Source: a virus. From it: a stretch of 26,131 nucleotides of DNA. A model generated the notes under the pieces. It saw only the letters and a program-made list of their open reading frames with translations, ran no database searches and had not been told where the DNA came from. Made by a program: the position numbers and the translations under genes. Location: positions 1-26,131 of the IMG/VR virus record IMGVR_UViG_3300048625_000010, one strand, 5' to 3'. Below are positions 2,043-14,378 of the stretch, in pieces. The first letter of the stretch is position 1. Each line of letters opens with the position of its first letter.

Positions 2043-5000
2043 ATGATCGATTTCAATACCGAACCGTATAATGATGATTACGACGAGAACAAGAAGTTCT
2101 ACCGTATTCTGTATCGTCCATCGTTTGCTGTTCAGGCTCGTGAACTGACTCAGATGCAGACAATTCTGCAGAATCAGATTTCTCGTCATGGTGATGCTAT
2201 TTTCAAACAAGGTGCGATGGTAATCCCAGGTCAGTCATCTGTTGAAACTATCACACAACCAAACAAGGGCGCTGATTACGTTACGCTACAATCCGTTTAT
2301 AACGGTGTAGCAGTTCAAACGTTCGTGGCTTCTCTTAAGGGTAAGACGATCATCGGTTCTTCTGGTGTAACTGCTGAAGTTATCGTAGCTCAAGATTCTG
2401 AAAACACAGACCCAACTACACTGTATATTCGCTACACAACAACTGGTAGCAACAATACAACTCAAACTTTCTCCAACGCTGAAGTTATCACTACTGAAGA
2501 CGGAATTTACTCTTTCCAGACCTCTACTTCTAATGCAGTTGGTAAAGGTTCTCTGGCTACTGTTCAACGTGGTGTTTACTACATCAACAAACACTTTTGT
2601 TTAGTTGAAGAACAGACTATTGTTCTAGACAAATACAGCAATACACCTTCTTACCGTATCGGTTTGAATGTTGCTGAATCTATCGTAACACCAGAAGAAG
2701 ACGAAACATTACTTGACAATGCACAGAACAGCTATAACTTTGCTGCTCCAGGTGCTCATCGTTACTACATCGATCTAACTTTAACTAAGTTACCAGTTGA
2801 TAGCACAAGCGATCAAGACTTTATTGAGCTTATCCGTGTTGTAGATGGTAAGATTAAAACTATCGTTGACACTACTGCATACTCTATGATTGGCGATGAA
2901 CTCGCTCGTCGTACATATGATGAATCTGGCGATTACACTGTACGTGAATTCTCTATTGATGTTCGTGAACACCGCAATAACGATCGTGGTGCATGGACAC
3001 AAAACACTGCATATTTAACTGGTGACATTGTTACCAGTGGTGGGCAAACATATGTTGCTAAATTAAGTGGTACATCTGTTACTACTGCTCCTGTTCATAC
3101 TACTGGCACTGCATATGACGGTCCAGGTTCTACTGGTATCAAATGGGAATTCAATACAACACCAGCATACAACCGTGGTATCTATAAAGATGGTTCTGAG
3201 TCTAAACTCGCCATTGGTCTAGAACCAGGAAAAGCCTACGTTCGTGGTTATGAAATCCAAAAAGATTCTACAACTTATGTTGCGGTTGATAAAGCACGTG
3301 CATATGATCAAGCACTAAACAGCATCATCCAACCTACTGCTGGTAACTACGTTTTGGTGACAAACGCCAATAACCTACCTCCACTAGACACTTGCGATAT
3401 TATCTCTTTACGTGATCAAACAACTGGATCATCTGTTGGTACCGCTGCTGGTAACCAAATCGGTACTGCTCGTGTTCGTTTCATGGAATGGCACTCAGGT
3501 GCTTTGTATGGCGCTACTGCTGTATACAAACTAGGTTTGTTTGATATCCAAATGAACTCTGGTAAAGATTTTAACCGCAATGTTAAATCTTTCTTCTACA
3601 GTGTAGCCAGCGCTGACGCTAACCTCAGCTTTAGTTCTGATATTAGCCCAATTTCTACTCCATTGGTTGGTTCTGTCACTGCTTCTGCTACATCATTGAC
3701 TGGTACTGGAACATCATTCCAGACTGATCTAGTCTCTGGCGATTATATCGTTGTTGATGGTGCATTGATTCGTGTTACAGGTACGCCTTCTTCTCAGAAC
3801 GCTGTTACAATCACTACTAGCTCTTTCACAGGCAAGGCTTACTCTCTAGCAACTACTCAGTTGTTAGAAGCTAATAATTCTAGCTTGGTGTTCTCTCTAC
3901 CTGATTACGCCATCCGTTCTGTACGTGGCGCTGGAACTTCTGGTGTTAACAACACAACATACGTTTGCTACCAAAAATTCACACAGACTGCTTCTGGCGT
4001 TACTGTGAACTTATCTACATCTGGTACATTCTCTTCTGCTTCTGGAGCAACAAACTACATCGTAGTTGACAATGATGCTGCAGCTGGTGGTGCAATTATC
4101 AATCCAGTTTCTATCGTAGTTTCTGGTTCTACTGCAACTATTACGGTTCCTTCTGCTCAGTCTGGTCGCTCAATCTCTGTTATCGCTGCGGTTATCCGTA
4201 ACGGTTCTGGTTACGAAAAGACTAAAACACTTACATCTGCTACTGAGACATTTACTACTGCTGCCGCTGCACAAGCTGCTATTGTCTACCTAGACAAAGC
4301 TGACGTGTTCCGTATCGTAAGCATCAAGATGGCTCCATCTGCTGCTTTTGGTACAACTCCAGCTTCTAGCGCATATACTCAAGACATCTCAGATCGTTAT
4401 GAGTTTGATAATGGCCAACGCCAAAGCCACTATGATTGGGGTCGTCTAAACCTAATCCCGTCTTTCACTGCTCCATCTAATCCTGTACAAGTCGTGTACG
4501 AATATTTTGAACACGGTGTTGGTGATTACTTCGACATTAACTCTTATAGCAACGTTGACTACAATCAAGTCCCAGCAGTATTGCGTGACTCTCTAGATTT
4601 CCGTCCACGTGTTGCTAACAAGTCTGCAGGTACTGTTAAGAACTTTGTCTCTACTGGTGGTTCTATCACTGGCATTCCAAAGCGTGGTGAAAGCGTAACA
4701 TCTGATTACAGCTACTACCTAGCACGTAAGGATAAGATCGCATTGGACTTCAACGGTAAGTTCTTTGATATCACTGGTGTGCCATCTACAAATCCAGGCG
4801 ATCCACAAGACCCAGCATTAGGTATGGTTCTATACAACCTAACCCTTGAGCCATACACATTCTCTACTTCTTCTGATAGCATTGCTGTTCAAAAGATGGA
4901 GAACAAGCGTTACACAATGCGTGACATTGGTAAGCTAGAGTCTCGTATCAATAACCTTGAATACTACACTTCTCTTTCTCTTCTAGAGCAAGAAACACAG

Positions 5001-8000
5001 TCTATGAAAATCACCACAACTGGTGGTCTAGATCGTATGAAGAATGGTTTCGTTGTTGATAACTTCAGTGGTAACAACATCGGTAACAGCAAGTCTAAAG
5101 ACTACTTCTGCTCTATCGATATGGAGAAGAATCAACTTCGCCCATTCTACACTTCTTACAACGTTAACCTTCTAGAGAAAAACTCTAACTCTGGCCAACG
5201 TGCTGCTTCTAACTATCAATTGAACGGTGATATTATCACTCTTCCAATTATAGATACTCCAGTATTGATCAAGCAAGACTACGCTTCTCGTTTGGAAAAC
5301 ATTAACCCATTCGCTATCTACACCTTCTTGGGTAACGTAGACATCAACCCACCATCTGATGATTGGTTTGAAACTACACGTATGCCTGATATCGTACAGC
5401 AAGTTGAAGGTAACTACAACACAATTAAAGACCTAGCAACTCGTGCTGGTATTATTGGCGATGCTGGTTTTGGTACTGTATGGGGTGCATGGCAGACTGA
5501 ATGGTTGGGAACACCGTTCTCTACTGGCACACAAACTCTAGAAGCTGATCGTCGTTACGGTGATGGTGGTTCTGCTCTTGACGCCCAGTTCGGTCTTGGA
5601 CCAGCTGCTTCTGGTTGGGCACATCGTGTTGTTAAAGTTGAAAACTTTGCACAAGCTGTTGGTCAATCACGTACTGGTGTTAAGACTTCTCTAGCAGTTA
5701 AGACTGACTATGAGACTGTTGCAGACCGTACTGTTTCTACTGCAGTTATTCCTTACATCCGTTCTAGAAACCTATTGGTGCAGACTAAGGGTCTAAAGCC
5801 AGCTACTCGTTTCTATGCATACTTTGATGACATCGATGTTAGCGCATTCGTTACACCTTCTGTTAAGTTGGTATACACAGCTGGGTCTGGCGCATTCGAC
5901 TTGTCTACAAACGTTGGTGGTTCTGCTTCTGAAACTAAACGCCGTATTGCTGGTGATTCTCAAGTATGTTTGAATCGTGGTGACGTTATTTCTAACTCTC
6001 TAAACACTGCTTCTGGCGTTGTTATTGGTAAGTATACTGATCCAGATACTGGTACAACGGTTCTTGAATTAGCCAACGTTATCGGCACATTCTCCAATGG
6101 TCAAACATTCACAGGTTCTGTGTCTGGTGCTTCTGGTACTGTTATTTCAGTTACTACACCTACAACTTTAATCACTAATAAGAACGGTGAATTGAACTTC
6201 TTGTTTGATATTCCAAACACAGACTCTGTACGTTTCCGTACTGGCTCACGTGAATTAAAACTTATCGATGCTTCTACTTCTACTGGTCAATGGACATCAC
6301 GTGGTCGTGGACTCTATCGTGCAGAGGGTGTTCTTGAAACTAAACAAGCATCTGTTAATGCTGTTCGTAATGCTGAATTGGTTAAAGAAATCATCGGTCC
6401 AAACGACGATCCAGCTGCTCGCCAGACAATCTATCAAGGTGCTGGTAGCCGTGTAGTTTCTGATACTGGTTGGTACGATCCACTTGCTCAATCATTCTTG
6501 GTTCAGCAAAAGGGTGGTGCATTCTTGACTGGCGTTGATATCTTCTTCGCTACAAAAGATGATCGTATCCCTGTTACGCTAGAAATCCGTGAGATGGTCA
6601 ACGGAACACCTGGAAAGAACGTTCTGGCATTTAGCCGTACTACTCTAAACCCAGCTCAAGTTAACATATCTTCTAATGTTGTGACTCTAGATGGTGCGTC
6701 TTACCCATCTTATGACACACCTACCCAATTCAAGTTTAACACACCTGTATACGTACAAGACAATACTGAATACGCCTTTGTTCTTCAGTCTGACTCTAAC
6801 AACTATAAGGTTTGGATCTCTAACATGGGCGATACAATTCCAGGGACTTCTGGAAGAACTATCTCTGAGCAACCATATGCTGGTGTTCTGTTCAAATCAC
6901 AGAACGCATCTACATGGACTCCAGATCAAAACCAAGATATCAAGTTCACTATCTACCGTGCTCAGTTCGATACTAGCGTTGTTGGTAACATTAGCTTCGT
7001 TAACGATGTGGTGCAATACGATACAATCGAAGTTGATCCGTTCCAGATCGTAAGCGGTTCTACTACAGTTCGTGTATGGCACTATGACCATGGTATGTAT
7101 ACTGGTTCACGTGTAACTATCAAAGGTGTTGCATCTGATATCAACGGTATTCCTGCTGCTGAGTTGAATGGTGACCACGTTATCTCTAACGTAGATGCTA
7201 ACAGCTATACTATCACAACTACTACTGCTGGCACATCTAGCGGTTACGGTGGTGGTTCTGCTGTTAAGGCAACTCGTAACGTAACTTACGATATCATCAA
7301 CCCATCTATCCAGATGCAGACTTTCTCTGATACTAAGTCTAGCTTCTCTATCTTGACCTCTTCTGGTAAGGCTATTGATGGTTCTCAAACACCATATGTT
7401 GCTGATACTACATATACTCCATGCTTGGTTAAAGAGAATAACTTCTTCTCTTCCCCACGTGTGATTGCTTCTGAAATCAACGAAAATACCTTGATGGGTG
7501 GTAATAAGTCTGTAACATTCTCTGCTCAGATTTCTACTACTAATGACGCTGTTTCTCCAGTTATTGATACTGCACGTACTAGCTTGGTTGCTATCTCTAA
7601 CAAGATTAACCAACCTACAGAAGCAAACACAAACGTGGCTGCTCTAGATTCTAAGTCTATTATCACTGGTTCTACTAACTGGGCATTCACTACAACTGGG
7701 TTTAGCTCTACAAACGCTACAATCCGTGGTTCTATGGCTGCTATTGGTATTGGTCGTTACGTGACTATTTCTGGCTCTGCAACTACAGCAGGTAACTTGG
7801 GTACATTCTTGGTGACTGGTTTCACAGATGATGGTACCACAGCTACTATCACTCTAAGCGGATTCTCTGGAACTGCTGAGACTGCTCTTTCTGGTTCTGT
7901 AGTTTCTGTCCGTGAATTGTTCTTTGATGAAATCACTCCAGAAGGTTCTTCTACTCTTGGTAAGTATGTAACTACACCTATCAAGTTTGCAAACTCTTCT

Positions 8001-8294
8001 ACATACCTACGTGTTCGTTTTGCGGCTAACATCCCTTCTGAAGCTACGGTTAAAGTGTTCTACAAGACTAGCGTTGGCGATACTAAGCAATTAGCAGCGA
8101 CTAAATATACACAGATGACTCCAGATTCTACCATCGTTAAAGTGGAAAATGGTAACCCTGCTTTCTCAGATATCGACTTTACGCTAACTGGTTTAACACC
8201 GTTTGACGGCTTGGTAGTTAAGATTGTTCTGCAGTCTACAAATAGCTGTGCTGTTCCAATTATTAAAGACTTACGAGTTATTGCCTGCCCATAA
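2043..8294 (+). CDS. Giant DUF4815-family baseplate/tail fibre structural protein
   Basis: A 2083-residue protein. Its N-terminus (FNTEPYNDDYDENKKF, then SFAVQARELTQMQTILQNQI) is the hallmark of DUF4815 proteins found beside gp8 in marine T4-like phages. They are thought to be baseplate or fibre components; the exact role is not settled. Visible parts: a beta-module around residues 98-156 containing SSGVTAEV; a Trp-led carbohydrate-binding-like module at about 317-374; a module of the type GTGTSFQTDLVSGDYI near 560; a predicted coiled coil at about 951-985 (KLESRINNLEYYTSLSLLEQ); a second beta-module with IGTFSNGQTFTG at about 1321-1374; and an HGM-type module at about 1677-1735. There is no signal peptide or membrane segment. 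It is preceded by a late promoter, and its stop overlaps the next start (TAATG). It fills the place of T4 genes 9 to 12, so it may replace several of them. Family call confident, role inferred. Confidence 0.8.
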   Translation: MIDFNTEPYNDDYDENKKFYRILYRPSFAVQARELTQMQTILQNQISRHGDAIFKQGAMVIPGQSSVETITQPNKGADYVTLQSVYNGVAVQTFVASLKGKTIIGSSGVTAEVIVAQDSENTDPTTLYIRYTTTGSNNTTQTFSNAEVITTEDGIYSFQTSTSNAVGKGSLATVQRGVYYINKHFCLVEEQTIVLDKYSNTPSYRIGLNVAESIVTPEEDETLLDNAQNSYNFAAPGAHRYYIDLTLTKLPVDSTSDQDFIELIRVVDGKIKTIVDTTAYSMIGDELARRTYDESGDYTVREFSIDVREHRNNDRGAWTQNTAYLTGDIVTSGGQTYVAKLSGTSVTTAPVHTTGTAYDGPGSTGIKWEFNTTPAYNRGIYKDGSESKLAIGLEPGKAYVRGYEIQKDSTTYVAVDKARAYDQALNSIIQPTAGNYVLVTNANNLPPLDTCDIISLRDQTTGSSVGTAAGNQIGTARVRFMEWHSGALYGATAVYKLGLFDIQMNSGKDFNRNVKSFFYSVASADANLSFSSDISPISTPLVGSVTASATSLTGTGTSFQTDLVSGDYIVVDGALIRVTGTPSSQNAVTITTSSFTGKAYSLATTQLLEANNSSLVFSLPDYAIRSVRGAGTSGVNNTTYVCYQKFTQTASGVTVNLSTSGTFSSASGATNYIVVDNDAAAGGAIINPVSIVVSGSTATITVPSAQSGRSISVIAAVIRNGSGYEKTKTLTSATETFTTAAAAQAAIVYLDKADVFRIVSIKMAPSAAFGTTPASSAYTQDISDRYEFDNGQRQSHYDWGRLNLIPSFTAPSNPVQVVYEYFEHGVGDYFDINSYSNVDYNQVPAVLRDSLDFRPRVANKSAGTVKNFVSTGGSITGIPKRGESVTSDYSYYLARKDKIALDFNGKFFDITGVPSTNPGDPQDPALGMVLYNLTLEPYTFSTSSDSIAVQKMENKRYTMRDIGKLESRINNLEYYTSLSLLEQETQSMKITTTGGLDRMKNGFVVDNFSGNNIGNSKSKDYFCSIDMEKNQLRPFYTSYNVNLLEKNSNSGQRAASNYQLNGDIITLPIIDTPVLIKQDYASRLENINPFAIYTFLGNVDINPPSDDWFETTRMPDIVQQVEGNYNTIKDLATRAGIIGDAGFGTVWGAWQTEWLGTPFSTGTQTLEADRRYGDGGSALDAQFGLGPAASGWAHRVVKVENFAQAVGQSRTGVKTSLAVKTDYETVADRTVSTAVIPYIRSRNLLVQTKGLKPATRFYAYFDDIDVSAFVTPSVKLVYTAGSGAFDLSTNVGGSASETKRRIAGDSQVCLNRGDVISNSLNTASGVVIGKYTDPDTGTTVLELANVIGTFSNGQTFTGSVSGASGTVISVTTPTTLITNKNGELNFLFDIPNTDSVRFRTGSRELKLIDASTSTGQWTSRGRGLYRAEGVLETKQASVNAVRNAELVKEIIGPNDDPAARQTIYQGAGSRVVSDTGWYDPLAQSFLVQQKGGAFLTGVDIFFATKDDRIPVTLEIREMVNGTPGKNVLAFSRTTLNPAQVNISSNVVTLDGASYPSYDTPTQFKFNTPVYVQDNTEYAFVLQSDSNNYKVWISNMGDTIPGTSGRTISEQPYAGVLFKSQNASTWTPDQNQDIKFTIYRAQFDTSVVGNISFVNDVVQYDTIEVDPFQIVSGSTTVRVWHYDHGMYTGSRVTIKGVASDINGIPAAELNGDHVISNVDANSYTITTTTAGTSSGYGGGSAVKATRNVTYDIINPSIQMQTFSDTKSSFSILTSSGKAIDGSQTPYVADTTYTPCLVKENNFFSSPRVIASEINENTLMGGNKSVTFSAQISTTNDAVSPVIDTARTSLVAISNKINQPTEANTNVAALDSKSIITGSTNWAFTTTGFSSTNATIRGSMAAIGIGRYVTISGSATTAGNLGTFLVTGFTDDGTTATITLSGFSGTAETALSGSVVSVRELFFDEITPEGSSTLGKYVTTPIKFANSSTYLRVRFAANIPSEATVKVFYKTSVGDTKQLAATKYTQMTPDSTIVKVENGNPAFSDIDFTLTGLTPFDGLVVKIVLQSTNSCAVPIIKDLRVIACP

Positions 8295-8521
8295 TGACAG
8301 AATTTTTGAAGGTAATAGGACATGATGGCTTGGTTAGAGACCCCTCTAGCGGAGCTATCATAAATACAAACAGAACTGAATACGAAGAATATATTGTTCG
8401 TATGAGAGAAGCTGAACAGCGTGAAAACGCAATTTCTCAACATACGGTTGAGATAAATAATATAAAGAACGAATTGCAAGACATAAAATCGTTAATTCTT
8501 CAACTCTTGAACAAAGATTGA
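8294..8521 (+). CDS. Small coiled-coil protein of unknown function
   Basis: A 75-residue protein whose ATG shares one base with the stop of the giant gene, so it is probably translationally coupled to it. The first 25 residues contain VIGHDGLVRDPSSGAI. The remainder is charged and heptad-like (EYIVRMREAEQRENAIS, then EINNIKNELQDIKSLILQLL), which predicts a helical coiled coil. Small proteins of this kind are seen after DUF4815 genes in marine T4-like phages. An assembly or chaperone-like role for the preceding structural protein is possible but not shown. Arg is split between AGA and CGT. Confidence 0.7.
   Translation: MTEFLKVIGHDGLVRDPSSGAIINTNRTEYEEYIVRMREAEQRENAISQHTVEINNIKNELQDIKSLILQLLNKD
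8452..8459 (+). promoter_or_regulatory. Possible internal late promoter (GATAAATA)
   Basis: GATAAATA differs from the T4 late consensus at the first base only. It lies inside the small coiled-coil gene, 80 bases before the next ATG at 8539, whose own gap of 17 bases is too short for a promoter. Matches like this occur by chance in AT-rich coding DNA, so the call is weak. Confidence 0.25.
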
Positions 8522-8538: not shown

Positions 8539-9720
8539 ATGGCATCAGTTAGCGCTGCAACAATCACGACTCGTGCTGGTAAGGGTAGTCCTCTTACCAA
8601 CTCTGAAGTCGATGCAAACTTTAACAACTTAAATACACAACTCCAGTTAGCCCAAACTGCTGCTAGCTATACTGCTGCAGACGTACTGGCTAAACTGGTT
8701 ACTGTCGACGGTTCTGGCTCTGGTCTAGATGCCGACTTACTGGACGGCATGAATTCTGCCACAGCAAATACGGTTAGCACTATTGTTGCCCGTGACGCTT
8801 CTGGTAACTTCTCTGCTGGTACAATTACCGCTACGAACTTCTCTGGTACATTTAGCGGCGTTGCTGCTATCACTAGCGGTTCTATCACTCTTAGCACTCA
8901 GTTAGCTATTGGTTCTGGTGGTACTGGTGCTACTACTGCTGCTGGTGCTCGTACCTCTCTTGGTCTAGCTATCGGTACAGACGTTCAAGCCTATGATCCA
9001 GAATTAGCGGCTTTAGCTTCCGTGACCTCTGCTGCTGACACTGCTCCATACTTTACTGGTTCTGGGACTGCTTCAACTTATACTGCGACATCTTATATGC
9101 GTGGTCTAATGGGTTCTGCAGCAGCAGCAAACGCTCGTACTACTCTAGGTTTAGCAATCGGCACAGATGTTCAAGCATATTCTGCTGAGCTCGTTGCTGA
9201 ATCTGGTCTTGCTGCAACTGGTATGATCGCTCGTACTGGTTCTGGTGCCCGTGCAGCACGTACTATTACTCAAGGCGCTGGTATTACTATCACTAACGGT
9301 GATGGTGTTGCTGGTAACCCAACCATCGCTGCAAACGTTACATCTGTTCAAGGTAACACTGGTGCTGTCGTTGTTTCTGTTCCAGTTACATCTGTTCAAG
9401 GTAACACTGGTGCTATTACTGTTACAAACATTTCTGGTGGTGCAGGTACAGTTCCATGGACTGGTGTTCAAGGTCCACCGACTGCTCTAAGCCAGTTCTC
9501 GAACAACTTAGGTAACTATGGCGGTTGGGTTCCATCTAATACTAAAACAATGGGTGGTCGTTTCCCTTGGGGCTTCTCTAACGGAACACAAGGTAACTGC
9601 GGTAACATTATTGCAGGTTATCAATCATACTTGTATGAAGATACAGGTTCTGGCGCACAGGCTTACTACTATACACAAAACTGCTCAAACTGTAATTGCA
9701 ACTGCAACTGCAACTGCTAA
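8539..9720 (+). CDS. Tail-fibre-like protein with C-terminal Asn-Cys repeat tail
   Basis: A 393-residue protein. The N-terminus ([19 protein letters not shown]) is a segment common at the start of fibre-type proteins in marine T4-like phages, probably an attachment part. The middle has typical fibre repeats: [13 protein letters not shown] at 86-98, two copies of [12 protein letters not shown] near 140 and 203, and two copies of TSVQGNTGA near 268 and 284. The C-terminal domain (about 310-380) is rich in Gly, Asn, Tyr and Trp. The last 13 residues alternate Asn and Cys, with six Cys (C382, C385, C387, C389, C391, C393). Only one other Cys is visible (GNCGN). Such a tail could bind metal in a trimeric fibre tip, form disulphides or thioethers, or be the substrate of the radical SAM enzyme encoded two genes downstream. 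A ribosome binding site (AAAGGA) precedes the ATG. Fibre type is well supported; the receptor and the tail chemistry are not known. Confidence 0.75.
8797..8831 (+). repeat. 35-bp exact repeat shared with a second fibre gene (copy 1)
   Basis: These 35 bases, encoding [12 protein letters not shown] in frame, recur without a mismatch at 15817-15851 in the 750-residue fibre gene. Flanking similarity (CGTGA plus one variable base) extends the match to 40 of 41. Exact identity at silent positions suggests recent copying or recombination between the two genes. Confidence 0.85.
9337..9414 (+). repeat. Two direct 30-bp repeats inside the fibre gene
   Basis: The 30 bases at 9337-9366 are repeated exactly at 9385-9414, 48 bases apart. 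They encode [10 protein letters not shown] twice. The unit length is a multiple of three, so loss or gain of a copy keeps the frame. Confidence 0.85.
9691..9717 (+). repeat. Hexanucleotide tandem repeat encoding Asn-Cys
   Basis: Three exact copies of AACTGC (9700-9717) follow one near copy (AATTGC) and a TGT codon. They encode the (Asn-Cys)n end of the fibre-like protein and run up to the TAA stop. Slippage would change tail length by two residues without a frameshift. Confidence 0.85.
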
Positions 9721-9732
9721 TAAGAGATTACT

Positions 9733-10599
9733 ATGACTATAATTTATAAAAACCCAACCGCAAAGCGTCACCACGATCAAGTAATTCCTGAAACTGGAAC
9801 GCCTCCGACTATTAAAATATACGTTGATGTGCAGCCTTCTTATTTTGAAATTAAGATGTCATATGATACGGTTAACATATTTGATATCACTATCGATGAC
9901 CAAGAGCCAGAAACTCGCACAGAAACTAAAACACATTATTTGCTTTGGCATAAACTTCCTCTTACTGCTCTACAGGGTAACACTGGATTTTCTGACCAGT
10001 CTTTGTGGGCGATTGCAGATAATGTAAAATTAGAAACTGGTGAACGAAATAAATTTGATCAAAATGGCGATCCAGAAGCATGGGTTATTAGTTCTAATGA
10101 ATTGGTAGATGCGTTTGCCAATACAGTAGCTACCAAACCTTCAGTATCATACACAGATAGCTCTCCAGCATATGACACAACATATGACGTTTTTGTGCCG
10201 TTCCTAAACGGATTGGACATGACTAAATGTGAATACAGACTGTACTTAGATCAAAACCTCACTTATGAGATTGATCCAACAAGCCCAGCAGCTGCAGATA
10301 TCGTTGATGTTTCTGGTAGAGTCAAAGAAATGATCGCCCCTATTACTGTGACTGGTCCGTCAACTATTGACGCAGATTCTACTATAACAGTGGATGTGAC
10401 AACAATTCCAGGGATTTATGCAGTCTATCTAGAACAGGTCTATGGCATTCTACCAAAAACCAAAGTTCTAATTGATGCTGCAGGTAACGGGTCGTTTAAA
10501 GTTTTAACTAGCGGTATGGATGTCGGAGACACCGTCGAAGTTAAAGTTGGATTTAAGAAGTGGGTTAATAGAGCCACGTACTCAAAAACTATTTCTTGA
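9733..10599 (+). CDS. Unknown 288-residue protein with Ig-like C-terminal region
   Basis: I do not recognise a family. The start (MTIIYKNPTAKRHHDQ) has no signal peptide or membrane helix. The middle has an aromatic stretch (THYLLWHKLPL) and an acidic part. The last 90 residues, from about PITVTGPSTIDADSTI, look like an Ig-like beta-sandwich ending in KWVNRATYSKTIS. There is one Cys (TKCEYR). The ATG lies 12 bases after the fibre gene stop, with AAGAGA as a probable ribosome binding site, so it is co-transcribed with that gene. Three of its six Arg codons are AGA, unlike the CGT-rich structural genes. A hairpin and late promoter follow. It could be a fibre partner, a second virion protein or a carrier for the downstream enzymes; nothing decides among these. 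Confidence 0.65.
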   Translation: MTIIYKNPTAKRHHDQVIPETGTPPTIKIYVDVQPSYFEIKMSYDTVNIFDITIDDQEPETRTETKTHYLLWHKLPLTALQGNTGFSDQSLWAIADNVKLETGERNKFDQNGDPEAWVISSNELVDAFANTVATKPSVSYTDSSPAYDTTYDVFVPFLNGLDMTKCEYRLYLDQNLTYEIDPTSPAAADIVDVSGRVKEMIAPITVTGPSTIDADSTITVDVTTIPGIYAVYLEQVYGILPKTKVLIDAAGNGSFKVLTSGMDVGDTVEVKVGFKKWVNRATYSKTIS

Positions 10600-10609
10600 T
10601 TTAACAACG

Positions 10610-10617
10610 ACTAAATA
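10610..10617 (+). promoter_or_regulatory. Late promoter -10 element (ACTAAATA)
   Basis: ACTAAATA lies in the 63-bp gap before the radical SAM gene. The expected start point, near 10623-10624, falls inside the left arm of the hairpin at 10619-10641. The CTAAATA form recurs in the gaps at 17289 and 20851. Confidence 0.5.
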
Positions 10618-10618
10618 C

Positions 10619-10641
10619 TTTCTGGGGCTAGACCCCAGAAA
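10619..10641 (+). terminator. Hairpin, probable terminator after the 288-residue gene
   Basis: A perfect 9-bp stem (left arm 10619-10627 ending GGGG, right arm 10633-10641 starting CCCC) with a 5-base loop, followed by a T-rich stretch (ATTCATTTT). The tail is weaker than a classic T run, so partial termination or a role as a 5' stem-loop is also possible. Confidence 0.55.
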
Positions 10642-10662
10642 TTCATTTTGAAGGTATACATA

Positions 10663-12045
10663 ATGTCACAGTTCACTATCACAGCATTAAACCCAGTAAC
10701 ACAAGAAAAGACTAAGTTATTTTATAACAGCAAAGATAGTCTGTTAACGTGGGACAACGGCGCATCAGTCATAGCAAATCCCAAAACTCAACCAGAAGTT
10801 ACAACACCCTCTAAGATTGAGACAGGTAAATCAGATCTTTCTATTATTAAGATCCAACTAGGTTTATCATGTAATTACGAATGTGATTACTGCTCTCAAC
10901 GTTTCGTCCCGCAAGCTGATCAAACTAACCCAAACGATGTAGATCCATTCGTCAATAACATGTCCACGTGGTATCATGGTGGAGAAGATGGATTAGGTAA
11001 AGGAACTAAGTTTGAATTCTGGGGCGGCGAGCCATTCGTTTACTGGAAAACATTTAAGCCACTAGCTGAAGCCATTAAGAAAAAGTATCCTAACGGTAGC
11101 ATGTCTGTTATCACAAACGGTAGCTTATTTGATTCTACAAAGAATCAATGGCTAGATGATCTTGAGTTTAGTATTTCAGTATCACATGATGGTCCAGGTC
11201 AACCAGTGCGTGGTCCAGACCCACTTGATGATCCAGAAGCTAAGAAACATATCTTAGACATTTACAAACGTCTTGCCCCAAAACATCGTTTTAGCTTTAA
11301 TGCTATGATCAATAGCAAGAACATTAGCCGTGTAGCAATCCAAGCATTCTTTGAAAACTTAGTTAGAACAGAACTTGGTGAAGACTATCTTCAATATCTT
11401 GTAATCGGCGAGGGTGGTTTCGTGGACGCCTATGACGAAGGTGGACTGGAAAATTCTCTAAAAGACACAGAAGAAGAAATCAAGTTTAGAGAATTTACGT
11501 TCAGTGAGATGCGAACAGGTAAAGCAGATCGATTCATTAGCGTTGGCCAAAAGATAGATGCATTTATCAAGTCATTAGCCCATGGGGTTAAATTAGACTC
11601 AGTACCACAAAAATGTGGTATGGATAAATCAGACCAAATAGCAGTCGACTTAAATGGTAACGTACTAACATGTCAGAACGTAAGTCCAGTATCTACTAGC
11701 CCATCTGGAGTTTCTCATCATATTGGCCACGTATCAAACCTAGCTGCTGTAGAAATTAAAACATCCACGCACTGGAGAGATAGAGAAGATTGTTCGAACT
11801 GTCCAGTCATTCACCTATGTAAAGGTGCGTGTATGTTCTTATCTGGTCCACTATGGGACTCTTCTTGCAACAATGCATTCAGTGACAATATTGTAGCATT
11901 TGCGGCGGCAATCGAAATCATGACAGGGCACATCCCTATCTACATTGATGGACCACTAAGAGAAGATAGAAAAGACATCTATTGGATGGTCCACGGGAAG
12001 CCGCAAAAAGCGACAAGAAAAATCATTCCAATCACGGTGGGTTAA
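10663..12045 (+). CDS. Radical SAM/SPASM-domain enzyme (peptide-modifying type)
   Basis: A 460-residue protein. The ATG at 10663 is preferred over an in-frame TTG at 10648 because AAGG lies 8 bases upstream of it. The radical SAM cluster motif is C70-x3-C74-x2-C77 (CNYECDYC), which holds the [4Fe-4S] that cleaves S-adenosylmethionine. GGEP at 121-124 is the SAM-binding motif. The C-terminal half has the complete seven-Cys SPASM pattern: C318-x13-G-x4-C337, then C377-x2-C380-x5-C386-x3-C390-x11-C402, which binds two auxiliary [4Fe-4S] clusters. Enzymes with this layout modify peptides or proteins (sulfatase maturases, sactipeptide and ranthipeptide maturases, PqqE). A leader of about 55 residues precedes the barrel. 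The first five Arg codons are CGT, the last nine AGA or CGA. The nearest Cys-rich candidate substrate is the Asn-Cys tail encoded at 9679-9717. Enzyme class is firm; reaction and substrate are inferred. Confidence 0.9.
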   Translation: MSQFTITALNPVTQEKTKLFYNSKDSLLTWDNGASVIANPKTQPEVTTPSKIETGKSDLSIIKIQLGLSCNYECDYCSQRFVPQADQTNPNDVDPFVNNMSTWYHGGEDGLGKGTKFEFWGGEPFVYWKTFKPLAEAIKKKYPNGSMSVITNGSLFDSTKNQWLDDLEFSISVSHDGPGQPVRGPDPLDDPEAKKHILDIYKRLAPKHRFSFNAMINSKNISRVAIQAFFENLVRTELGEDYLQYLVIGEGGFVDAYDEGGLENSLKDTEEEIKFREFTFSEMRTGKADRFISVGQKIDAFIKSLAHGVKLDSVPQKCGMDKSDQIAVDLNGNVLTCQNVSPVSTSPSGVSHHIGHVSNLAAVEIKTSTHWRDREDCSNCPVIHLCKGACMFLSGPLWDSSCNNAFSDNIVAFAAAIEIMTGHIPIYIDGPLREDRKDIYWMVHGKPQKATRKIIPITVG

Positions 12046-12348
12046 ATGAGTTTTATTGATGAATATTTGATAGAGATTAACCAGATGCCAAAATATGGCG
12101 AGAAGATGGATCTCTATACAATAAAAGACTATTTCTTTTATGATTCCAATACTAAGGAATACGGGCACAAAGACACAGTTATCCCAGTGTCTTATCTCCT
12201 AAATAAAGAAGAAATGCCTGACCCCGAAATGATCAGGACTATTATAAATAGTAAAATACCTATCATGAGAAGACTGATAGACCTAAATAATCAAAAGGAA
12301 AGTTGGATTTTTGATACCAACGTTTTAAAGGAAACTAGAAATGACTAA
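12046..12348 (+). CDS. Unknown 100-residue protein between radical SAM and DctP genes
   Basis: The ATG follows directly on the TAA of the radical SAM gene with no gap, and the end overlaps the DctP-like start by 8 bases, so all three are probably coupled. The protein is charged, with LYTIKDYFFYDS and a helical segment around PEMIRTIINSKIPIMRR. No Cys, signal peptide or membrane segment is visible, and I recognise no family. All four Arg codons are AGA or AGG. A partner or accessory subunit of the enzyme upstream is conceivable from position alone. Confidence 0.6.
   Translation: MSFIDEYLIEINQMPKYGEKMDLYTIKDYFFYDSNTKEYGHKDTVIPVSYLLNKEEMPDPEMIRTIINSKIPIMRRLIDLNNQKESWIFDTNVLKETRND
12243..12250 (+). 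promoter_or_regulatory. Perfect T4 late promoter consensus (TATAAATA) inside the 100-residue gene
   Basis: TATAAATA is an exact match to the T4 late -10 element, 91 bases upstream of the DctP-like ATG. It would give that gene its own late transcript. A chance match in AT-rich coding DNA is possible. Confidence 0.4.
12282..12289 (+). promoter_or_regulatory. Possible late promoter (CCTAAATA) before the DctP-like gene
   Basis: The same octamer occurs in the gaps at 17289 and 20851, and again at 12198-12205. From here a transcript would start near 12295, about 46 bases before the DctP-like ATG. Confidence 0.35.
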
Positions 12349-13285
12349 ACATGTAAAATGGGTTATTGCCCACGAGCCAATCGGTTTGTTTTTGAAAGTA
12401 GCAGAACGATTCGCTAAAGAAGTGAACGAGAAGACCGATGGCGCATTTGACATTGAAGTTCTCTCTCTTTCAGACTATTCTACCAAATACAATGATGGTA
12501 AGGCTATCACCAAACATGATCTATTAAACTTGATCGACACAGGTGTTATCGAAATGAGCCACATCTATTCCAACTGGTTGGGTGACTACAATAAAGACTT
12601 GCACGCATTGGATCTTCCATTCTTATTCGCTGATCACGACCATGTCGACCGTGTTCTAGAAGGTGAAATTGGCAAGGGTCTATTGGCAGGTGTTGCTGCC
12701 AAGAGTAACGTACAAGGTCTAGCATTCACTTACTCTGGTGGTTACAAAATTGTACCAGCTAAGAAGGCTATCACTAAAGTTGAAGACTTCCAAGGTATGG
12801 ACATCCGTACTAGCAAGAGCCCAGTATGTATGGAAATTTTCTCTACACTAGGTGCTACTCCAAACCAATCTATCGACATCGAACACTTAACTGAAGCTGG
12901 TAAAGCTGGTCTAGTTGATGGCGGTGAATCTACATACGTTCGTGTGTTCCCATTGAACCAGACTGAAGCGTTTGGTTACATCAATGAAACTAATCACAAC
13001 CTCTTGTTAACTAGCATCATCGTTAACAAAGATTGGATGTCACAGTTCGACGAAGAAACTCAACAAATTCTATCTGACGCAGCTTTCGTTGCAGCACGTC
13101 AAGAACGTCGTGAGTCTGTTGCTGATGTTCCAGGGATCATCGCTGACTTCCAAGCTAAAGGTGTTGAGTTGGTAACTATGTCTGCTGATGAAAAAGCTAA
13201 GTTTGTTCAAGCTACTTCTAAAGTTTATGACACGTTTGCTGACTACTTTACTCCAGGTCTAGTTGAGAAGATTCAACTACACTAA
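12341..13285 (+). CDS. DctP-type TRAP solute-binding protein lacking a signal peptide
   Basis: A 314-residue protein matching the mature part of TRAP-transporter substrate-binding proteins. The first strand WVIAHEP is followed by AERFAKEVNEKTDGAFDIEV, then ALDLPFLFADHDHV, then FQGMDIRTSKSPVCMEIF with the conserved Arg that normally pairs with a substrate carboxylate, and AGLVDGGEST in place of the usual GxVDGxE. Family members are exported and normally have an N-terminal signal; here the fold begins within ten residues of Met, so the product should stay in the cytoplasm or enter the particle. No TRAP membrane subunit is encoded in the window. Six of seven Arg codons are CGT, as in the virion genes and unlike the flanking genes, and three promoter-like motifs lie just upstream, which points to high late expression. 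RBS is AAAGGA. Fold confident; role (ligand scavenging, receptor mimicry or virion component) open. Confidence 0.85.
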   Translation: MTKHVKWVIAHEPIGLFLKVAERFAKEVNEKTDGAFDIEVLSLSDYSTKYNDGKAITKHDLLNLIDTGVIEMSHIYSNWLGDYNKDLHALDLPFLFADHDHVDRVLEGEIGKGLLAGVAAKSNVQGLAFTYSGGYKIVPAKKAITKVEDFQGMDIRTSKSPVCMEIFSTLGATPNQSIDIEHLTEAGKAGLVDGGESTYVRVFPLNQTEAFGYINETNHNLLLTSIIVNKDWMSQFDEETQQILSDAAFVAARQERRESVADVPGIIADFQAKGVELVTMSADEKAKFVQATSKVYDTFADYFTPGLVEKIQLH

Positions 13286-13293
13286 GCGATAGT

Positions 13294-13301
13294 GATAAAT
13301 A
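13294..13301 (+). promoter_or_regulatory. Late promoter -10 element (GATAAATA)
   Basis: Seven of eight match to TATAAATA, placed directly before the terminator hairpin at 13303. The expected start near 13307-13308 falls inside the left arm of that hairpin, so transcripts from this promoter would not form the full stem. Confidence 0.5.
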
Positions 13302-13302
13302 C

Positions 13303-13327
13303 AAGGGAGCTTCGGCTCCCTTTTTTA
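13303..13327 (+). terminator. Strong intrinsic terminator after the DctP-like gene
   Basis: An 8-bp GC-rich stem (AAGGGAGC with GCTCCCTT) closed by a TTCG tetraloop and running into six T residues. TTCG-capped stems are typical of T4-type terminators. It should end transcripts coming from the DctP-like gene, 18 bases after its stop codon. Confidence 0.9.
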
Positions 13328-13340
13328 TTCTGAGGACATT

Positions 13341-14378
13341 ATGATTCTATATTACAACACCCACAAAATTTCAGAGATTATCAAAGATCAAAAACATCTG
13401 ATTGAACGAAGCCCGTTTCTATTACCAAACACAGAGAGTTTATTCAATTCATATGAAAAATTTGGGTTAAACAAACACAACGCAGTGTATGATAGAACAG
13501 GACATCTCCCCCATTATTTGAATATGTCGGTTGGTGCACATCCAATCCCACCAAAAGTTGAGAATTACAATAAATCTTTTTGGGAAATAACTGAACAGAG
13601 AGCAAAAGAATTATTGGCAACTGACAAACAGATTAATGTTATGTGGTCTGGTGGTATCGATAGCACTTACATCTTATTCACATTACGACATTTTGCAAAT
13701 GATCCAGATCAGATAAAGGTGTATGGTACATATAACTCTATTATCGAATCTGGTGATTTATTCGATAGAAGAATCAAGAATGAGTTTAAACATAAGATCA
13801 AAGTGTCCTCTCGAAATGATATGAATTTTGAGGAAGATTCTCTCTATGTTAGCGGTATGTGCGGGAATCAATTATTTGGTCCAACTGATGATATGTTTGC
13901 GTCAAATAACGCAACGGCAATGTTCCACCACACTCTTGGAACACCAGAAACTATCTACGAACCATACGAGAATAACATAAATCCAGAACTACTGGAATTC
14001 TTAGACCCTATCATTAAAAATTCACCTAAGAAAATCGAAACAGTCAATGACCTTCGTTGGTATTGCATTTTTAACTTAGATTGGTATACTGCTCTGTATG
14101 AGCATAAAATCCTACTGACACCAGAAGTTGCTAATAGAGTACACGGTTTCTTCAGTTCTGAGGAATTCCAGTCATGGTCGGTTAATACGAAAGAGCCATT
14201 CACTAAAGTTAGGGGAAACCCTAACACCCATAGATGGCAAATGCGACAGATTTTGGATGAGATGTTTGATGAACCTCATTACGCATACAATAAACCGAAG
14301 AAAATTTCCACGTTTTCCTTCATAGAACCCCAATGGTTATTTTTACTTGACGGGTACCATAACGTGTTGAATGACTAA
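13341..14378 (+). CDS. Asparagine-synthase-like PP-loop ATPase without glutaminase domain
   Basis: A 345-residue protein with the pyrophosphatase loop SGGIDS at 103-108 (VMWSGGIDSTYILF), which binds ATP in asparagine synthases and related N-type ATP pyrophosphatases. A second AsnB-like segment is GMCGNQLFGP at 172-181, a degenerate form of the SGxGADELFGGY motif. There is no N-terminal glutaminase domain with a catalytic Cys2, so it cannot use glutamine in the usual way and would need ammonia or an amine acceptor, as lasso-peptide cyclases (McjC type) do. The first 90 and last 110 residues have no recognised domain. RBS is TGAGGA. Eleven of its twelve Arg codons are AGA, CGA or AGG and only one CGT, unlike the adjacent virion genes, which suggests lower expression or separate ancestry. 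Other PP-loop reactions (adenylation in tRNA or queuosine chemistry) remain possible. Confidence 0.75.
   Translation: MILYYNTHKISEIIKDQKHLIERSPFLLPNTESLFNSYEKFGLNKHNAVYDRTGHLPHYLNMSVGAHPIPPKVENYNKSFWEITEQRAKELLATDKQINVMWSGGIDSTYILFTLRHFANDPDQIKVYGTYNSIIESGDLFDRRIKNEFKHKIKVSSRNDMNFEEDSLYVSGMCGNQLFGPTDDMFASNNATAMFHHTLGTPETIYEPYENNINPELLEFLDPIIKNSPKKIETVNDLRWYCIFNLDWYTALYEHKILLTPEVANRVHGFFSSEEFQSWSVNTKEPFTKVRGNPNTHRWQMRQILDEMFDEPHYAYNKPKKISTFSFIEPQWLFLLDGYHNVLND

Follow-up and report, generated by a model that had tools for sequence, protein, structure and literature searches.

As shown in Table 1, a gene for a fibre-like protein ending in a run of Asn and Cys residues (the NC run) lies close to a gene for a radical S-adenosylmethionine (SAM) enzyme with a SPASM domain. 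Both genes were found in a 26,131-nucleotide stretch of a T4-like phage (positions 1-26,131 of the IMG/VR record IMGVR_UViG_3300048625_000010), which is called the window hereafter. An earlier note, made from the letters of the window, had proposed that the enzyme modifies the tail of the fibre-like protein. The fibre-like protein consists of a T4-like fibre N-terminal region, a low-complexity beta body, and a Cys-rich C-terminus. Its gene is located directly behind the gene of a giant structural protein (phrog_358) and that of phrog_473. In marine relatives, the place after VrlC is a variable host-recognition cluster (PMC7029224), and the phrog_358 gene of the window presumably corresponds to VrlC. 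A companion gene, designated K, separates the fibre gene from the enzyme gene. The start codon of the enzyme gene was placed at ATG 10663, which has a GAAGG ribosome-binding site, instead of TTG 10648, where the mechanically predicted open reading frame (ORF) began.

Table 1. Features of the window, numbered from its first nucleotide
Feature	Position	Strand	Basis
Giant structural gene, phrog_358	2043-8294		PHROG match
Short virion protein, phrog_473	8294-8521		PHROG match
Fibre-like protein, 393 aa, presumed substrate	8539..9720	+	ORF; PHROG tail fibre/structural matches
C-terminal Asn-Cys run, 13 residues	9679..9717	+	Translation, codon usage, run statistics, homologous runs
Companion K, 288 aa, between fibre gene and radical SAM gene	9733..10599	+	Clustering, operon patterns
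Radical SAM/SPASM enzyme, 460 aa, presumed Asn-Cys tail maturase	10663..12045	+	phrog_1802; SPASM and Fer4_12 matches
Radical SAM cluster motif CNYECDYC (C70, C74, C77)	10870..10893	+	Invariant in alignment
Seven-Cys SPASM motif C318-X13-G-X4-C337 ... C377-X2-C380-X5-C386-X3-C390 ... C402	11614..11868	+	Alignment
Possible accessory cassette, three genes	12046..14378	+	Pfam/PHROG
100-aa protein	12046-12348	+	Part of the accessory cassette
DctP solute-binding protein, no signal peptide	12341-13285	+	Part of the accessory cassette
Asn-synthase/PP-loop-like protein	13341-14378	+	Part of the accessory cassette

The last 13 residues of the fibre-like protein include six Asn and six Cys residues. The six Cys residues are as the earlier note described them, but the alternation that it described is interrupted by one Ser residue. 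The codons of the tail are mixed (AAC and AAT for Asn, TGC and TGT for Cys), and one repeated hexamer is used in just 12 of the 110 Asn-Cys runs collected. Thus, the run is a protein-level pattern, and a simple DNA repeat artefact was ruled out by the varying codons. Is the motif Cys alone or Asn-Cys? In 81 non-redundant tail proteins, Asn precedes 79% of the 243 Cys residues located ahead of the run, and 87% of the Cys residues within 80 aa of the run. The corresponding value for control ORFs is 4.3%, while the overall Asn content of the tail proteins is 8%. These values clearly indicate that the motif is Asn-Cys. Run positions 1 to 3 are nearly always Asn. Proteins of 184 and 202 aa ending in NCNCNC, which are described below, were left out of these statistics. 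The Asn-Cys proteins span from 400-aa fibres down to 87-98-aa proteins, of which each locus encodes two or three copies. In loci of the L048, L051, and L181 type (L numbers denote the collected loci), an NC-studded protein of 131-173 aa is encoded directly 5′ of the enzyme gene; in the L051 type, this protein has 133 aa and the enzyme 488 aa. In many fibre relatives (L006:5773-6978, L014, L015, and their relatives), a His-rich stretch (e.g., HLDTNHHFDPHHHH) lies immediately ahead of the NC run, which suggests a metal site near the tip. In a Magnetovibrio metagenome-assembled genome, a collagen-like GPTGPQGPAG protein with a terminal NC run (L198:2345-2788) is encoded near a distant enzyme homologue.

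The enzyme gene is the second gene after the fibre gene and has complete radical SAM and seven-Cys SPASM motifs, as had been noted before. All ten motif Cys residues (CX3CX2C and the seven of SPASM) are conserved without exception in 42 diverse homologues, whose identity reaches as low as 33%. Pfam, NCBIfam, and PHROGs all assign the enzyme to the radical SAM/SPASM proteins. It matches the phrog_1802 profile of phage radical SAM proteins (E 4.9e-63, residues 25-417), belongs to the radical SAM superfamily by its CX3CX2C motif and fold matches, and exceeds the cut-off of the SPASM model TIGR04085 (33.3 vs 27 bits). Among the curated maturase models, none was reached: the best NCBIfam match was PapB (52.9 bits vs a cut-off of 340, E 3e-14), and the scores stayed below the cut-offs for TIGR03942 of the anaerobic sulfatase-maturating enzyme anSME (44 vs 349 bits, E 1.5e-11) and for TIGR03906 of QhpD (36.7 vs 453 bits). 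The family spans 33-66% identity to the window enzyme and is found in T4-like phages, siphophages, large phages, and prophages.

The AlphaFold model of the enzyme has a predicted local distance difference test (pLDDT) score of 93.5. The closest solved structures are CteB (Z 23.6, root-mean-square deviation 4.1, 366 residues), ChlB (Z 21.1), and anSME (Z 20.0). The structural alignment with CteB begins at residue 1 of the enzyme, and no Pfam match to PqqD or the RiPP recognition element (RRE) was obtained (RiPP, ribosomally synthesised and post-translationally modified peptide). Enzymes with seven SPASM Cys residues, such as CteB, can keep auxiliary cluster I (AuxI) open, while anSME and SuiB fully ligate AuxI (PMC6231123). 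In the alignment of the 42 homologues, there is no eighth invariant SPASM Cys. Judging from the alignment, AuxI of the window enzyme is probably open. A non-Cys ligand of AuxI would also be compatible with the seven invariant Cys residues. Since Asp serves as a ligand in PqqE, the seven SPASM Cys residues favour CteB-like chemistry without proving it.

Is the tail regularly paired with the enzyme? On the enzyme side, 27 viral loci, two Achromobacter phages, and 70 bacterial-genome loci were surveyed. Where the viral loci contain enough DNA upstream, almost all of them encode an NC-run protein there, and the same applies to 44 of the 53 bacterial or prophage loci (out of the 70) that have at least 4.5 kb upstream. 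The nine loci lacking a run include fragments or remnants (L155, L208, L213, and L220) and two distant sequences (L216 and L222), L216 having an NC protein further downstream. The earlier note had said that homologues regularly occurring without any Cys-tailed protein would refute the proposed modification of the tail by the enzyme. Such loci are a minority, and most of them are fragments, remnants, or distant radical SAM genes.

On the tail side, viral contigs were blindly scanned for DNA reading NCNCNC followed by a stop codon, and 119 stretches were returned. The enzyme lies beside 39 of the 59 in-frame stretches vs 1 of the 60 out-of-frame stretches (Fisher p 2e-15, an optimistic value given the near-duplicate contigs). 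Three of the 20 in-frame stretches without an adjoining enzyme have it elsewhere in the record, and most of the remaining ones are short end pieces belonging to the same fibre families. Among 15 enzyme-carrying bacterial genomes, 15 of 15 NCNCNC-encoding matches (overlapping matches counted) are located at the enzyme locus. I also surveyed 79 loci with relatives of the fibre body of the window. When at least 4 kb of downstream DNA is available, the enzyme is present in 8/8 loci of NC-tailed relatives and in 0/29 loci of untailed relatives, four of the latter having a distant radical SAM gene. Thus, the co-occurrence that the earlier note had proposed as a check was found from both sides. In L239, the fibre has no tail, and the next gene encodes a 122-aa NC-rich protein (L239:8953-9321), followed by K. 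The tail can exist as a stand-alone gene.

Some radical SAM genes were examined and set aside. Those near a fibre relative in L303 and L304 belong to another family (about 144 bits or less vs at least 330 bits for the linked members), with no NC run seen. These distant genes (L303/L304:1-3541; 352 and 443 aa) reside in a T4-like host-recognition cluster, flanked by a Cys-containing gene cut by the locus edge on the 5′ side and by a gene for a 251-aa protein on the 3′ side. They form a different radical SAM cassette. The radical SAM genes of Campylobacter phages and human-gut contigs match over the barrel only (22-33%), and no NC run was found in L224. A plasmid search for the enzyme found none. 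Among about 50,700 phage records, full-length relatives were found only in the Achromobacter phages JWF and 2-1, with a homologue at about 46%.

Clustering of the neighbouring genes revealed a common order, NC protein, K, 2-oxoglutarate (2OG) oxygenases where present, and radical SAM enzyme, which is shared by phages and prophages from several bacterial phyla. K is present in 103 of 138 loci, usually between the tail gene and the enzyme gene. It has a beta-rich N-terminal region and a C-terminal bacterial Ig-like domain of the Big_1/intimin type, as indicated by a Pfam Big_1 match on a relative and by a model (pLDDT 89.8) whose residues 202-288 match intimin (Z 10.3). The fold search gave clear matches for this Ig domain only and none trustworthy for the N-terminal region. 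The oxygenases (PF13759 and PF13640) occur in many operons. In the T4-like group including the window, they are not in the available DNA, and an Asn-synthase-like gene is found instead.

A Hint domain starting with CFPAGT comes directly after the NC run in eight or nine loci, which belong to Achromobacter phages, Burkholderia, and Rhodospirillales. In the Achromobacter phages JWF and 2-1, the tail ahead of the Hint domain reads NCNCDCNC. The relative in L001 scored above the cut-off of Pfam Hint (46.6 vs 32.1 bits), while the fibre-like protein of the window has no Hint domain. The Hint state requires three changes on the enzyme tree. Since self-cleavage of the Hint domain would again leave an NC C-terminus, the exposed NC end seems to be what matters.

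The reading that I favour, with a probability of about 0.6, is that the phage encodes at this locus a cassette for the maturation of a virion protein, namely that of the fibre tip. As far as comparative sequence data tell, the Asn-Cys tail is very probably the substrate of the radical SAM enzyme. The fibre-like protein would be synthesised with its C-terminal Asn-Cys pairs, which the adjoining SPASM enzyme would bind. A 5′-deoxyadenosyl radical would abstract a hydrogen from the Asn (or the Cys) of the pair, and a thioether would then most likely form between each Cys sulfur and a carbon of a neighbouring Asn. This linkage is the most likely one because the closest fold is that of a thioether synthase, AuxI is probably open, and there is a Cys-Asn precedent in NxxcA, in which Cys23 is thioether-linked to Asn20, the Asn three residues earlier (PMC8326336). 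The same N-x-x-C spacing is contained in every NCNC. A thioether product as such is slightly favoured over all else.

The outcome would be a short rigid knob at the fibre end, resisting protease and redox. Such a cross-linked tip could withstand proteases, reductants, or unfolding, or could offer a fixed shape to the receptor. A place of the modified tail on the virion, with a role in adsorption or stability, has about even chances. In other phages, the 2OG oxygenases may add a further step, and the C-terminal Hint domain could remove itself, leaving the modified end free. In its broad form, which I hold to be as probable as the cassette itself, a widespread, so far unrecognised class of phages would use radical chemistry on those of their virion proteins that face the receptor. 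A dedicated SPASM enzyme would give poly-thioether, RiPP-like tips to Asn-Cys-tailed fibres and to small fibre-like proteins, and in some lineages 2OG oxygenases and Hint self-processing would take part.

Several observations weigh against the maturation cassette. L197, L204, and L214 are true exceptions, having enzyme homologues with no NC run nearby. Two unrelated families of 184-202-aa proteins (in L050, L106, L099, and L129 and in L053, L091, L114, and L142) have an NCNCNC terminus, and their records, which are partial, contain no radical SAM gene; these families seem to be a different case. The late positions of long runs tolerate Ala or Asp. Isolated motifs in the protein bodies have Asn chiefly at position -1, not -3. 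Thus, the NxxC precedent maps uncleanly onto them. The enzyme model has no complete N-terminal RRE, with just three short strands before residue 60. CteB, ChlB, and anSME are all near in fold, and a shared fold does not fix the chemistry.

Might the enzyme modify the tail by another reaction? It could produce formylglycine from Cys as anSME does, epimerise residues, form a C-C cross-link, or yield a hydroxylated or dehydro product together with the 2OG oxygenases present in many of the operons. The structural and profile matches to anSME (Z about 20; TIGR03942 E 1.5e-11) are in line with this. However, the eighth SPASM Cys, which ligates AuxI in anSME (PMC6231123), is absent here, the tails have no C-x-[PA]-x-R sulfatase motif, and Cys is strictly paired with Asn, which makes another reaction unlikely. 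T4-type fibre needle tips have HxH motifs and bind iron. The tail might likewise be a metal- or Fe-S-binding tip in which the Cys residues of three fibre chains are stacked, the enzyme only priming or repairing it. Alternating Cys residues would point to one face of a beta strand, and several relatives have His-rich stretches directly before the run. Such a tip is nevertheless improbable, as it leaves without reason both the dedicated radical SAM gene and the Asn ahead of nearly every Cys in small non-fibre proteins.

It is very improbable that the enzyme serves another product, such as a cofactor or a host-metabolism gene, and adjoins the fibre gene only through the shared variable host-recognition cluster. 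Other radical SAM cassettes do occur in such clusters (PMC7029224; the distant genes in L303/L304), but the pairing with the NC tail holds across phage types, across the divergence of the enzyme (33-66%), and in whole bacterial genomes. Little probability is likewise left for ordinary disulfides between fibre chains with K as the target of the radical enzyme. While K equals the tail in its conservation as a neighbour, it has no invariant residue, no conserved Cys, and a mean column identity of 20%, and most of the Hint-type loci in which tail and enzyme are retained lack it.

Compared with known systems, the cassette read in this way is closest to the ranthipeptide synthases CteB (SCIFF) and PapB (freyrasin) and to the NxxcA maturase, which share the radical SAM and seven-Cys SPASM motifs and an adjoining substrate gene with repeated Cys. 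The closest structural match is CteB, and among the NCBIfam models PapB scored best. The substrates of these enzymes are small leader-bearing precursors, whereas those found here are mostly 300-400-aa fibre-like virion proteins whose very C-terminus carries the motif. Also unlike those systems, no complete RRE is seen in the enzyme model, and an extra Ig protein, 2OG oxygenases, or a Hint domain is found. The RiPP hallmark of a short precursor with a removable leader does not apply to the 393-aa window substrate with its C-terminal motif. Relatives of 87-173 aa exist among the Asn-Cys proteins, with no leader removal seen.

QhpD, the maturase of quinohemoprotein amine dehydrogenase, forms Cys-Asp/Glu thioethers in a structural subunit and not in a natural product (PMC8326336). 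It is thus another radical SAM/SPASM enzyme acting on a structural protein, but it is a bacterial enzyme with one dedicated substrate and no (NC)n run. anSME is alike in fold and motifs, and its name appears in the GenBank annotation of the JWF homologue. In contrast, its extra Cys fully ligates AuxI (PMC6231123), and neither a sulfatase nor a C-x-[PA]-x-R motif is found here. The presumed substrate in the window resembles T4-type and lambda-type fibres: it is fibre-like, and its gene follows a phrog_358 gene within a host-recognition cluster of the T4-like kind (cf. PMC7029224). The Hint domains of the relatives resemble Hedgehog/intein-like autoprocessing domains in their CFPAGT start; in those relatives, cleavage would expose the C-terminus either for the modification or once it has taken place.

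I know of no described phage fibre with an (Asn-Cys)n end or with a maturase. The earlier note could name no phage system of this kind, and a literature search found no description of a phage fibre combined with a radical SAM enzyme and a Cys tail, which is a weak absence, as subscription papers and preprints lay outside the search. Radical SAM/SPASM enzymes are known for peptide natural products and for the maturation of a few enzymes. Biochemically, the system would resemble QhpD or ranthipeptide maturation, while by the curated cut-offs it falls outside the named families. What is new lies in the presumed substrate, which is a virion protein of phages from many lineages; a divergent enzyme family is tied to fibre-like virion proteins by one unusual motif. 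Should the tails be modified, covalent chemistry hidden from sequence-based prediction of receptor binding has a part in how phages recognise their hosts, and recombinant fibres produced without the enzyme would be wrong. The small NC-rich proteins and the adjoining enzyme provide a simple in vitro system, and the cultured Achromobacter phages JWF and 2-1, which carry the system, are natural test objects.

The accessory cassette downstream of the enzyme gene was seen only in the T4-like subgroup (about 26-29 loci), either before or after the radical SAM gene. A link to the tail is possible, the connection being positional. The Asn-synthase/PP-loop ATPase-like gene travels with the enzyme in this subgroup; ATPases of this type activate carboxylates in other peptide modifications. 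The DctP match is of the TRAP type (E 7e-50), and the gene is kept with that of the 100-aa protein in about 26 related loci. A signal-less DctP protein encoded in a host-recognition cluster is possibly a decoy or a part of the virion.

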